The position numbers and the translations under genes are program-made. 64,000 nucleotides of DNA. Origin: Mucilaginibacter xinganensis (GTDB lineage Bacteria > Bacteroidota > Bacteroidia > Sphingobacteriales > Sphingobacteriaceae). Where the stretch lies: NCBI RefSeq assembly GCF_002257585.1, contig NZ_CP022743.1, positions 4,464,001 to 4,528,000 of the forward strand. Reading direction: 5' to 3'. The notes beneath the pieces are model-generated. The model was not told where the DNA came from. It was given only the letters and a program-made list of their open reading frames with translations, and did no database searches. Below, piece by piece: positions 25,929 through 28,789 of the stretch; position 1 is the first letter of the stretch, and every line of letters begins with the position of its first letter.

Positions 25929-26300
25929 CTAATCCCAGTCTAATGCGCCTTTTTTTATCACATAAAAAAAGCCAAGTAACAGGGTACCCATAAAAATAAA
26001 CATCTCTATCATACCATCTTTGCCGAGCTCTCTGAAGTTAACTGCCCACGGATACATAAAAATAACTTCCACATCAAACAGCACAAAAAGGATGGCCACC
26101 AGGAAGTATTTAATGGAGATTGGGGTACGGGCATTACCAATAACCTCAATACCCGATTCAAACGGCGTAAGCTTGTCTTTGGTAGCCCGCTTAGGGCCAA
26201 TTTTATGGGTTACAAACATAGTGGTAACCACAAAACCTAAAGCTACCAGCATTTGAAAAATGATGGGCAAATAATTAACGGGCAAACTTTGTACTTCCAT
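25929..26300 (-). CDS. nuoA: NADH-quinone oxidoreductase subunit A
   Basis: NuoA is a three-helix membrane subunit at the junction of the complex I arms. I take the ATG at 26300 (MEVQSLPVNYLPIIFQ), giving 123 residues. The upstream in-frame TTG at 26315 would put the promoter -7 element inside the gene. The diagnostic loop FESGIEVIGNARTPISIKYF and FDVEVIFMYPWAV are intact. It is the first gene of the nuo operon, with a gap of 318 bases before nuoB. Confidence 0.95.
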   Translation of the reverse strand: MEVQSLPVNYLPIIFQMLVALGFVVTTMFVTHKIGPKRATKDKLTPFESGIEVIGNARTPISIKYFLVAILFVLFDVEVIFMYPWAVNFRELGKDGMIEMFIFMGTLLLGFFYVIKKGALDWD

Positions 26301-26304
26301 GCTG

Positions 26305-26312
26305 CAAATATA
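26305..26312 (-). promoter_or_regulatory. -7 promoter element of the nuo operon
   Basis: The minus-strand TATATTTG is a perfect TAnnTTTG and ends four bases before the nuoA ATG. The first transcribed base would then be at or next to the start codon, implying a leaderless or nearly leaderless nuoA mRNA. A clear -33 TTG at proper spacing is not seen. Confidence 0.5.
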
Positions 26313-26325
26313 CAAATGGGATTAT

Positions 26326-26343
26326 AATAAAAAAGCCTCCTGA
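26326..26343. repeat. Left copy of an 18-bp direct repeat bounding the peptide island
   Basis: AATAAAAAAGCCTCCTGA differs in one base from 27000-27017. The two copies lie 674 bp apart on either side of the GG-leader peptide gene. The right copy is half of an intact terminator palindrome, and the left is an orphan arm. Confidence 0.5.
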
Positions 26344-26756
26344 CAACCATTAGTTAAATAACCAGTTCAAGTATATTAACCATACGAAAACAAGAGCATT
26401 TTAATGGTTACATAATTAATACAATTTATTATTAAATGCTATTAGCTTAAAATTAATATCTTTATGTAATTAAAGCCTAATCCTATGCACCCATCCTCTA
26501 CTATCAAGACTTTCATCCGGCAAATATTAATAATAAACGATTTTCACCAGTTAGGACAGCCAATTTTTTAAAAAGGCATGTGTAATATTTTAACTGCTTT
26601 TAATAGCTATTTGTCCTTATTCTACCTCCATTTCATATTACAAATAACTGATTGAATAAATAGATACTGGTACTTTCAAAAAAGGAGCATGCACTTTGGT
26701 GATACATGCCACAATACCTGGACGTTACCAGGCAAAAAACAAACAAATTAAAATTT

Positions 26757-26933
26757 ATGGAAAATTTAAAAAAACTCAGTAGAGCTGAAATGAAAAATGT
26801 TTTAGGGGGTGATAAACATCCAGTGTGTTCAGGGAAATCTTGTAGTTCAGATTCTGAATGTGGCACAGTATGCAGTTGTGTTACGCTTGACTTTGGAGAT
26901 AGCCCTGCACAAAGCTATTGCTTAGAAGCTTAA
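26757..26933 (+). CDS. Double-glycine-leader Cys-rich peptide precursor (knottin-like core)
   Basis: I start at the ATG at 26757, giving 58 residues. Residues 1-18 (MENLKKLSRAEMKNVLGG) form a double-glycine leader of the Bacteroidota RiPP/bacteriocin-like type, normally cut after GG by a C39 peptidase transporter. The 40-residue core has six cysteines (24, 29, 35, 39, 41, 55), spaced x4, x5, x3, x1, x13. The segment CSSDSECGTVCSC follows the C-x5-C-x3-C-x-C spacing and the internal DS of squash-type cystine-knot peptides; the last loop is longer. Disulfide knotting is inference. No C39 transporter, radical-SAM or other maturation gene is in the window, so the processing machinery must be elsewhere. 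The alternative, a further start at 26706, adds no leader-like sequence. Confidence 0.75.
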   Translation: MENLKKLSRAEMKNVLGGDKHPVCSGKSCSSDSECGTVCSCVTLDFGDSPAQSYCLEA

Positions 26934-26963
26934 ATAAGAGCATATACTTCTTAATGGTGTTCC

Positions 26964-26995
26964 CGTTGAATCGTCCTAAAATAGGTTGACCCAGT
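26964..26995. mobile_element. Possible IS-end remnant
   Basis: The segment with GTCCTAAAATAGGTTGACCC resembles, from memory, terminal sequences of IS3-like elements of Bacteroidota. There is no transposase frame and no matching opposite end was found. This is a weak call, based on likeness only. Confidence 0.2.
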
Positions 26996-27002
26996 GAACA
27001 AT

Positions 27003-27036
27003 AATAAAGCCTCCTGATAAATCAGGAGGCTTTATT
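27003..27036. terminator. Intrinsic terminator, strong on +, between the peptide gene and the TPR gene
   Basis: A perfect 16-bp inverted repeat (ATAAAGCCTCCTGAT and its complement, arms 27003-27018 and 27021-27036) is followed on + by CTTTTTTTT. It lies about 70 bases after the peptide gene and ends 17 bases before the end of the convergent TPR gene, so it can serve both. Confidence 0.88.
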
Positions 27037-27052: not shown

Positions 27053-28789
27053 TTACTTGCTCTTACCGCCAGCTTTTTTCTGGAAGTAATATACCACCTG
27101 GGCGTTAGTAGGATCCATTTCCTTTGCCTTGGTATAAAGATCTAGTGCCTTCGTTGCATCCTTTTCTTTATATTCAGCGTAGCTCCCTAAATATACATAA
27201 GCTTCAGCTAACAATGGCTTCGTTTTATCATCAGGTGCACCTTTTGATGTTACCAATTGAATATATTGCTCAAACAGTGGTTTTGCGTACCCTTTAATAT
27301 TATTCCTGTCACCATCTTCGAAATTTTTAACGGTGGCATGATAATATAAAATTTGGGCATTTGGACTACTTCCCAATTTACGTTCAACATAGGACATAGC
27401 AGTGTCAGCTTTAGCCAGAAGCGTTGAATCAGGCTTTAAAGTCTTATCTGTTTGTTGTTTAATTAACTGGCTTTTGTAGGCCTGGAAATAGCTAAACCCT
27501 TCATTAAAGTGATCAAGAAGTTTGGCCTGCCTTGATTTATTAACAAACACCCCATAAGCCTCAGCTGCTTCAATATATTTACCTGATGCATATAAAGATT
27601 TGGCTATGTCCCCATATATATCAACTTGAGAGGTATCAAGTGTTAAAGCTTTACGTAAATTTTGTACCCCTAACGAATCCTTTTTCTCCTGCAGCTGGGT
27701 TTTTCCCAGGTACAAATAATCGTTAGGAAGCAAGCGCTTTTTATCAGCTTCGTTGATCCATTTGGTTAATGCACCCTCTGCAGCCGGATAATCTTTATTT
27801 TCAAATGCCGCATAACCCAAATAGCGGTAAACCCTTAGGTTGCTTTTAGCAGAAGCGGTAAGATCTGAAGCTACTTTTTGCAACGTAACATAATCTTTTG
27901 CCTTTAGCAAAAAGTCAGCGTAACGCATTTGCGATTCTACCGAATAGTCGGTTAAGCTTACATACTTTTTATAATTCTCGACAGCTTCTTTGTTTTTTGC
28001 GTCGTAACTGGCAGCATCTTTTGTTGCCCAGCGTACATCTAATTCGGCCATCTCGCGATAGGCCGGACCATAGTTAGGGTCGATGGCTAATGCTGCCTGG
28101 AATTGCTTTTGCGAATCTTCGTAGTTTTCAGCATATTTCCATAAAACGCCTTCCGCTACGTTCGCCGCAGCTGATTTCGGATCAATTGCAAGCGCAGTAC
28201 TATATTGTGTATAAGCGTCGGTGCTTTTTAATTGTGAGCGATAAGCATCACCCAAGGCAATTAATACTTCAGCATCTTTAGGATTTACTGCCTTACCTTT
28301 TGTTAAAACAGTTATCGCAGCATCTGCATCAGCTGCAGAAATTTTCGAACCATTTGGCCCCATGCTGCTCCCGTTCACCGGTAATAAGTAAGCTAAGCCT
28401 GCATATAAATAAGGCTTGCTGTTTTTTCCTGCCAGGGTTATTGCCTGGTTAAAATTGGAAGTTGCAGTGGCGTTGTCTTTTTCAACATGCGCGACGGCAC
28501 CTATTCCAACCATATTTAACGGCGATTTTGCATTTACCGCAAGGCCCTTGTTGAATACAGCTTTTGCCGAATCGGCATAGTCCTGTTTTAAATATACCCA
28601 ACCCAGGTAAAAATAGTTCTCATCCTTATCGGCCTGTGTGGTAGTCAGGTTTTTAAGCATCGCCTTTGCTTTCTGATACTGCTCCGCATCAATAGCCTTT
28701 TTGGCATCGGCTAAACTCTGTGCAAAAACCGACGATCCTAAAAACATCAAACCCAGCCCTGCGCCGGCTATTTTACTGATCATTTTCAT
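27053..28789 (-). CDS. Secreted tetratricopeptide-repeat protein
   Basis: This 578-residue protein has a signal peptide (MKMISKIAGAGLGLMFLGSS, cut near VFAQ) and then TPR units over nearly its whole length. Typical TPR pairs are YFYLGWVYLKQDYADSAKAV, AYTQYSTALAIDPKSAAANV, AALAIDPNYGPAYREMAEL and ALDLYTKAKEMDPTNAQVVY. It is likely a periplasmic scaffold, function otherwise unknown. It is the last gene after the exbB-exbD-tonB-binding protein series, 213 bases downstream of the binding protein, so a functional link to energised transport is possible but not shown. Confidence 0.85.
   Translation of the reverse strand: MKMISKIAGAGLGLMFLGSSVFAQSLADAKKAIDAEQYQKAKAMLKNLTTTQADKDENYFYLGWVYLKQDYADSAKAVFNKGLAVNAKSPLNMVGIGAVAHVEKDNATATSNFNQAITLAGKNSKPYLYAGLAYLLPVNGSSMGPNGSKISAADADAAITVLTKGKAVNPKDAEVLIALGDAYRSQLKSTDAYTQYSTALAIDPKSAAANVAEGVLWKYAENYEDSQKQFQAALAIDPNYGPAYREMAELDVRWATKDAASYDAKNKEAVENYKKYVSLTDYSVESQMRYADFLLKAKDYVTLQKVASDLTASAKSNLRVYRYLGYAAFENKDYPAAEGALTKWINEADKKRLLPNDYLYLGKTQLQEKKDSLGVQNLRKALTLDTSQVDIYGDIAKSLYASGKYIEAAEAYGVFVNKSRQAKLLDHFNEGFSYFQAYKSQLIKQQTDKTLKPDSTLLAKADTAMSYVERKLGSSPNAQILYYHATVKNFEDGDRNNIKGYAKPLFEQYIQLVTSKGAPDDKTKPLLAEAYVYLGSYAEYKEKDATKALDLYTKAKEMDPTNAQVVYYFQKKAGGKSK

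Follow-up and report, generated by a model that had tools for sequence, protein, structure and literature searches.

A GG-leader precursor with a cysteine-rich core

The 64,000-nucleotide stretch of Mucilaginibacter xinganensis DNA analysed here (contig NZ_CP022743.1, positions 4,464,001 to 4,528,000; hereafter the window, whose own numbering is used throughout) carries at 26757–26933 on the forward strand, stop codon included, a gene for a 58-residue precursor with a bacteriocin-like leader ending in two glycines (GG) and a cysteine-rich core. The open reading frame (ORF) is real, as is its GG-leader, bacteriocin-like character. On balance, the evidence favours a product that is locked by disulfides, exported by a C39 peptidase transporter, processed in trans and probably antibacterial, and that belongs to a large, diversifying family whose expression is probably tuned by a structured RNA.

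The leader (26757–26810) comprises 18 residues and the core (26811–26930) 40, with six Cys separated by gaps of 4-5-3-1-13 on recomputation; translation thus agrees with the architecture given in a first-pass annotation made from the sequence alone. The bacteriocin-like leader proposed there was likewise recovered. NCBIfam model NF047798 (leader_Chryseo, "bacteriocin-like protein"), which describes the 18-residue leader only and is silent on core or function, scores it at 35.4 bits against a curated cut-off of 23.5. An alternative in-frame start at 26706 would give a 75-residue product; since this codon falls within an upstream RNA element (26679–26736, see below), 26757 is the better start.

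Export and disulfide machinery elsewhere in the genome

The first-pass annotation called the gene an orphan. This holds for the window, where neither a C39 match nor a match to the fusion protein described below was found in 64 kb, but not for the genome, which encodes two C39 exporters, three fusions of C39-like, VKOR and thioredoxin domains, and no fewer than 18 different GG-leader precursors. The exporters answer the suggestion, made with that annotation, to look for C39 transporters in the rest of the genome, so that a GG leader and a C39 exporter are both present, the latter at other loci. At E≤10 the leader model detected 23 places in this genome, of which seven exceed the cut-off; 8 of 14 control genomes also gave weak matches, all below the cut-off.

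The closest paralogue (C1:1158701) shares 15 of 18 leader residues and has core gaps of 3-5-3-1-6. It lies in a cluster (L078) with a 529-residue fusion protein, two TlpA-like proteins, a second GG peptide, a C39-ABC exporter and HlyD, a neighbourhood that supports export and disulfide formation for the window peptide as well. The fusion reads in Pfam as Peptidase_C39, VKOR and Thioredoxin_4, and all three fusion genes (L078:6250-7836, L079:9485-11050 and L080:5439-7115, by Pfam) adjoin genes for Cys-rich leader peptides. Their C39-like match does not begin before profile position 17 and lacks the Cys and His of the exporter, which we take to be catalytic there; CxxC motifs are present in both the VKOR and the thioredoxin parts. 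Three of the four loci of this genome that carry the RNA element are separated by over 500 kb from the nearest C39 or fusion match above the cut-off, which makes processing in trans plausible.

A pathway may be proposed on this basis. The leader would be recognised, and then cut after GG, by the C39 peptidase-ABC exporter, and the six core Cys would be joined into three disulfides by the membrane-bound fusion, whose degenerate C39 domain may hold the leader; exporter and fusion would both act from other loci of this genome. The core would fold as a miniprotein resembling an inhibitor cystine knot (ICK), a structured RNA in the 5′ leader would probably tune synthesis, and the mature peptide would most likely be an antibacterial weapon against related bacteria.

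A thioether- or radical-SAM-modified RiPP (ribosomally synthesised and post-translationally modified peptide), rather than a plain disulfide peptide, appears very unlikely. The window leader does bear some likeness to TIGR04149, a model of radical-SAM-modified RiPPs, and to class I lanthipeptide leaders (NF038158), but it scores below the cut-off in both cases (18.8 of 25 and 13.4 of 27 bits, respectively); moreover, the paralogue has redox proteins as its cluster neighbours, and the even Cys numbers described below also speak against such a modification.

Fusion relatives were found on seven plasmid records, from the genera Emticicia, Spirosoma, Hymenobacter, Parabacteroides and Aureibacter. 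The three records that were opened contain four small peptides beside fusion relatives, each with six Cys as judged by eye (two in Emticicia, one each in Parabacteroides and Spirosoma), the Parabacteroides leader ending in AG instead of GG. The precursor itself had no match at E 0.01 among plasmid and phage records. A second copy of the paralogue cluster was not seen either: DNA matches within the genome do not extend beyond the stretch on the leader side (e.g. query 432-553, 73%), with three candidate places scored per genome, such that a further copy is possible.

Other arrangements of related genes were also observed. A different subtype of GG peptide, with cores starting KYPGCA or KIEGCA, is encoded four times in tandem at C1:4563500-4566600 (L019, L020; also within L083), preceded by a short GCTTTGT-type stretch unlike the main RNA element. 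Three similar tandem GG peptides, with at least three adjacent Cys soon after GG, are found at L079:11464-12539, next to a C39 ABC exporter, an HlyD-like protein and a fusion gene. In the Parabacteroides distasonis plasmid NZ_OY725766.1 (L201), a single run of genes encodes a VKOR-family protein, a six-Cys small peptide, a LanC-family protein, two glycosyltransferase-like proteins and a peptidase-domain ABC transporter, possibly a further-modified relative.

Even cysteine numbers and core diversity

An even number of Cys was found in all 73 GG-leader cores (2 Cys in two cores, 4 in seven, 6 in 52, 8 in ten and 10 in two). These cores come from loci fetched by precursor, leader, RNA or region searches, mostly within the genus, and passed a leader pattern; Cys of any number was allowed for the parity count. 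The rule persists after reduction by identity (72/72 cores at 80%, 70/70 at 60%, 46/46 at 40%), against 196 odd and 78 even counts in control ORFs of 40–110 residues with at least three Cys. Such even counts suggest that the thiols of the cores are all paired, as disulfides.

Behind their leaders the cores diverge strongly, mean identity among the GG-leader peptides being 0.55 for leaders and 0.27 for cores. This bears on the possibility that the peptide is a secreted disulfide-rich signal, or has some other non-killing role, while using the same export route. Signals are indeed among the GG-leader peptides exported by C39 transporters, the genome encodes many different peptides, and an immunity gene was not seen. 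Hypervariable cores behind a conserved leader nevertheless suit weapons better, and the nearest tested relatives in architecture kill, as described in PMC6671954; we consider a signalling or other non-killing role fairly unlikely.

A structured RNA element upstream of the precursor genes

A copy of a structured RNA element lies at 26679–26736 on the same strand as the precursor gene and ends 20 nt 5′ of the ATG (38.6 bits, E 2.2e-8). Many DNA matches to the inserted region begin about 76 nt 5′ of the ATG (query 346–357). In the alignment the element consists of two stems and a pseudoknot between a linker and a loop. Of 28 upstream stretches picked, 27 were aligned (L061, without the GGAG motif, was set aside), and a covariance model was built from 13 of these, selected because their layout was uniform. 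With this model, 41 of the 149 genomes available for the genus, M. xinganensis among them, gave 102 matches in all; across the family, matches occurred in 40 of 399 genomes, 31 of this genus and nine of four other genera, three of the nine at E below 1e-8.

Covariation was assessed on 61 matches from 53 loci (57 distinct sequences, including the 13 modelled), aligned by fitting to the stems and not to the pseudoknot. Among the distinct sequences 93.6% of cells pair, and two-sided changes occur at 12 of 14 pairs, in 56 cells as compared with 15.4 (sd 3.9) after shuffling; none of 500 shuffles, which ignore relatedness, reached this number. When partners are slid along the alignment, pairing falls to 18–51%. 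In the pseudoknot helix, which lies outside the model, 86.9% of cells are paired and each of the four pairs shows two-sided changes, though the outer pair fails in 19 of 54 sequences. RNAalifold recovered only the first stem from the first 27-sequence alignment; the second stem and the pseudoknot were located by hand and then counted. The presence of G-U pairs fits transcription of the element from the peptide-coding strand.

The element is closely associated with the peptides and with the fusion gene. A Cys-rich GG-type peptide follows 27 of 30 fetched matches; of the three misses (L154, L170 and L183), the last does show a short Cys-rich frame with GG when read by eye, and for three other loci (L155, L160 and L173) the script probably chose the wrong start codon. 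Thirty-eight of the 102 elements lie within 0–500 nt 3′ of a same-strand fusion gene, 35 of them at 22–106 nt, where about 0.007 would be expected for places spread evenly over 5.3-Mb genomes. Among the 149 genomes, element and fusion occur together in 37, the element alone in 4, the fusion alone in 36 and neither in 72 (Fisher p 1.9e-10, uncorrected for relatedness). The three opened plasmid clusters contain no copy of the element. Rfam 15 gave no match at E≤1 in eight element-carrying loci, and near the window copy nothing beyond weak matches under the threshold, which were strongest at the terminator described below. On this comparative evidence the element is a candidate regulatory RNA.

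Just 5′ of many element copies (L073, L064, L037 and others) there is an inverted repeat of the type ACTTTTCGCGAAAGT, degenerate in the window, which is a candidate for a further hairpin or an operator.

Cysteine spacing and predicted fold

The ICK spacing consensus is CX3-7CX3-8CX0-7CX1-4CX4-13C. The window core agrees with it, the last loop being at the upper limit, as do 9 of the 52 six-Cys cores, compared with a shuffle mean of 0.74 (sd 0.86) and no shuffle of 2000 reaching nine; the independence of the nine is overstated, because there are paralogues among them. The clearest knottin-spaced case, judged by spacing, is found in a congener (G046), where a fusion gene is followed by three peptides of the form C6C5CC3C(9-11)C (gaps 6-5-0-3-9 to 11) and then by the start of a C39 exporter gene. 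The best sequence matches of these three cores in the Protein Data Bank (PDB) are venom peptides (E 0.012, 0.0051 and 0.43), none of them significant at 0.001. In another genus of the family (G418), a six-Cys peptide with ICK spacing follows each of two RNA elements. Neither these C-C-CC-C-C members of the family, nor the RNA element, nor the insertion described below figured in the first-pass annotation.

That annotation had pointed instead to plant squash-type inhibitors, on account of the C-x5-C-x3-C-x-C segment with an internal DS, and had regarded only the last loop as different. Loop lengths of squash inhibitors are about 6-5-3-1-5, from which the window core departs in loops 1 and 5 alike; the paralogue, with 3-5-3-1-6, does not match them either. 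The 5-3-1 gap triple arises in shuffled window cores with p=0.0025, and occurs in 2 of the 71 GG-leader cores with at least three Cys, for an expectation of 0.136, but the two count as one event because they are paralogues. Conservation of the spacing among homologues failed to materialise beyond this single paralogue of the same genome, an outcome that the first-pass annotation had itself listed as a refutation. A model of the core alone, run on 399 family genomes, found the two paralogues (E 1e-24 and 2e-18) and otherwise matches at E 0.0014 or worse; 11 of these weaker loci were read, and none encodes a GG-leader Cys-rich peptide. A scan of genome contigs for a GG leader followed by C-x5-C-x3-C-x-C (M-[KR]-x and a VIL/F-type codon before GG, 10–40 nt from GG to the second Cys), in a collection from which records near the M. 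xinganensis genome were possibly left out, gave 32 stretches, 9 of them in frame with the leader ATG. By eye, the single plausible Cys-rich GG peptide among them is from Rhodonellum psychrophilum (L101); it has eight Cys in total, with others lying between those that match the pattern. Another stretch (L089) is a run of Cys.

Membership in the squash trypsin inhibitor family was thus rejected, the loops differing, homology failing and the spacing being confined to two paralogues. A squash-type protease inhibitor could still be argued for from the shared segment, from the predicted fold, which superposes on the squash inhibitor EETI-II, and from the PDB sequence matches of the paralogue core, among which squash inhibitors rank first (best E 0.065, not significant). 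The window core, however, has no squash match among PDB sequences, and the loop lengths and the restricted distribution given above also oppose it. The protease-inhibitor activity first suggested accordingly finds no support, and we regard it as scarcely credible.

Structure prediction bears on a knottin-like fold in the wider sense. AlphaFold2 models reach a pLDDT of 83.4 for the window core and 85.7 for the paralogue core, each from a two-sequence alignment. VIA-align places the window model on EETI-II with 30 residues aligned at 1.6 Å (Z 2.9; top row 8g4y_B, Z 4.2) and the paralogue model with 29 residues aligned at 1.8 Å (Z 3.2); for the latter, Foldseek lists an EETI-II mutant at E 2.1. 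The knottin-like core of the first-pass annotation thus finds a counterpart in the models, but not in the search scores, which are weak. According to these models, the window core may adopt a knottin-like fold. The disulfide pattern that defines the knot, as given in a review (PMC4695807), is I-IV, II-V, III-VI.

Insertion into a conserved terminator region

The precursor gene lies between two conserved neighbours on the reverse strand, a gene at 25929–26300 that we take to be nuoA from its place in a nuo-like gene run, and a convergent gene for a TPR protein at 27053–28789, adjacent to the first in congeners. The gap between the two is 69–178 bp in the 13 congeners in which both neighbours are readable, and 752 bp in M. 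xinganensis; in a further congener locus (L119), counted outside the 13, the TPR match was not within reach. A terminator-like repeat separates the two genes in all 13. In the window this corresponds to a hairpin at 27003–27036 with perfect 16-nt arms, between the peptide gene and the TPR gene. The peptide gene is part of a 674-bp insertion into this conserved terminator region, absent from the 13 congeners. The extra DNA (26326–27020) is bounded by a direct repeat of 21 nt, identical at 19 of 21 positions and with a spacing of 674, whose left copy lies at 26326–26346 and whose right copy, at 27000–27020, is the left arm of the terminator hairpin (both on the forward strand). The G+C content of the extra DNA is 32%, compared with 41% for the window. 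Similar direct repeats at two other isolated loci were not convincing.

Such an insertion could have moved the precursor away from its machinery and left a decaying or silent copy from which the peptide is no longer made. Besides the genome-specific insertion and the lack of machinery matches in the window, no Bacteroidota-type promoter pattern was found in 26300–26760, and only one of four pseudoknot pairs is retained in the window element, so that the gene may be silent. The ORF, the leader and all six Cys are intact, however, as is the terminator; both RNA stems are mostly retained, the first being intact and the second having 4 of 5 model pairs as read from the alignment, and one of the two includes a rebuilt 5-bp stem; and other element-linked peptides of the genome are likewise far from machinery. 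We therefore consider silence of this copy unlikely, though a serious candidate.

The poor pseudoknot is among several observations that weigh against a functional, knotted antibacterial peptide as proposed here. The window precursor is isolated and was found in no other genome, and an immunity gene was not identified. Related genomes supplied both the cores of the even-Cys count and the RNA sequences. The RNA element was not detected in 36 of 73 fusion-bearing genomes, nor within 500 nt downstream of 63 of 99 fusion matches. As to the fold, the two-sequence input to AlphaFold2 may bias it towards remembered knottins, the VIA-align Z values are low (2.1–4.2), and the best Foldseek result for the window core has E 0.5, the first rows being phospholipase D rather than knottins. 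A phmmer search of PDB sequences with the window core gave no squash or knottin match, its sole match at E≤10 being a cellulase (E 1.3). Finally, 43 of the 52 six-Cys cores fall outside ICK spacing, which implies that a knot can be no more than one among several folds of these peptides.

Relation to known systems and implications

The closest tested counterparts are the bacteroidetocins, class IIf bacteriocins compared here by description (PMC6671954). They share with the window peptide a Bacteroidota origin, a GG leader and a Cys-containing mature peptide of about 40 residues, but their leaders are 15–16 residues long instead of 18, and they have four Cys (bacteroidetocins A and B) or at least two (others) instead of six. 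The bacteroidetocin gene cluster, with a transmembrane protein, an ABC transporter/peptidase and usually a thiol oxidoreductase, has no equivalent in the window, whereas the paralogue cluster contains comparable components. Loss of the thiol oxidoreductase gene or of the transmembrane protein gene attenuated bacteroidetocin activity, according to the same paper. The C39-like/VKOR/thioredoxin fusion and the RNA element distinguish the present family, and killing has been shown for bacteroidetocins only. By analogy, the window peptide would work like a class II-type GG bacteriocin and, going by its model, may fold like a knottin.

Other likenesses are partial. Squash inhibitors such as EETI-II share the C-x5-C-x3-C-x-C segment with DS and superpose on the models, but differ in loop lengths, leader and kingdom, and in the missing sequence match. 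The C-C-CC-C-C ICK peptides of venoms and plants have the spacing of the three G046 and two G418 peptides, unlike the window core with its different framework, and the family differs from them by its bacterial GG leader and C39 export. Proteins of the VKOR family (PF07884) with thioredoxin domains resemble the corresponding CxxC-containing parts of the fusion, which differs in its additional N-terminal C39-like domain without the exporter Cys and His, and in its proximity to GG peptides.

It is conceivable, as a more speculative and distinctly tentative proposal, that Bacteroidota possess a "knottin factory". In it, a leader-guided disulfide maturase (the C39-like/VKOR/thioredoxin fusion, with its degenerate C39 domain) would lock hypervariable peptides, in some cases as cystine knots; the precursors would be under the control of a pseudoknotted RNA that may be a riboswitch; and insertions of single genes, like that in this window, would carry new peptides through genomes. 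The novelty would lie in the combination of knottin-like cores, fusion enzyme and RNA element. Linear knottins have been reviewed from plants, fungi, insects and spiders (PMC4695807). In open-licence PubMed Central literature, covered by titles and the starts of abstracts, none of the matches listed deals with C39-like/VKOR/thioredoxin fusions alongside GG peptides, with this RNA, or with GG-leader knottins, and a term search of the main text of PMC10352776 found no mention of VKOR or vitamin K.

If this proposal is true, bacteria would offer a new supply of stable scaffolds and antibacterials, in the form of genetically encoded knottin-like peptides served by a dedicated exporter and disulfide enzyme. 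A simple prediction from the even-Cys rule is that mature products contain no free thiols, and the RNA element, a candidate for regulation in its own right, would serve as a handle in the search for such genes.
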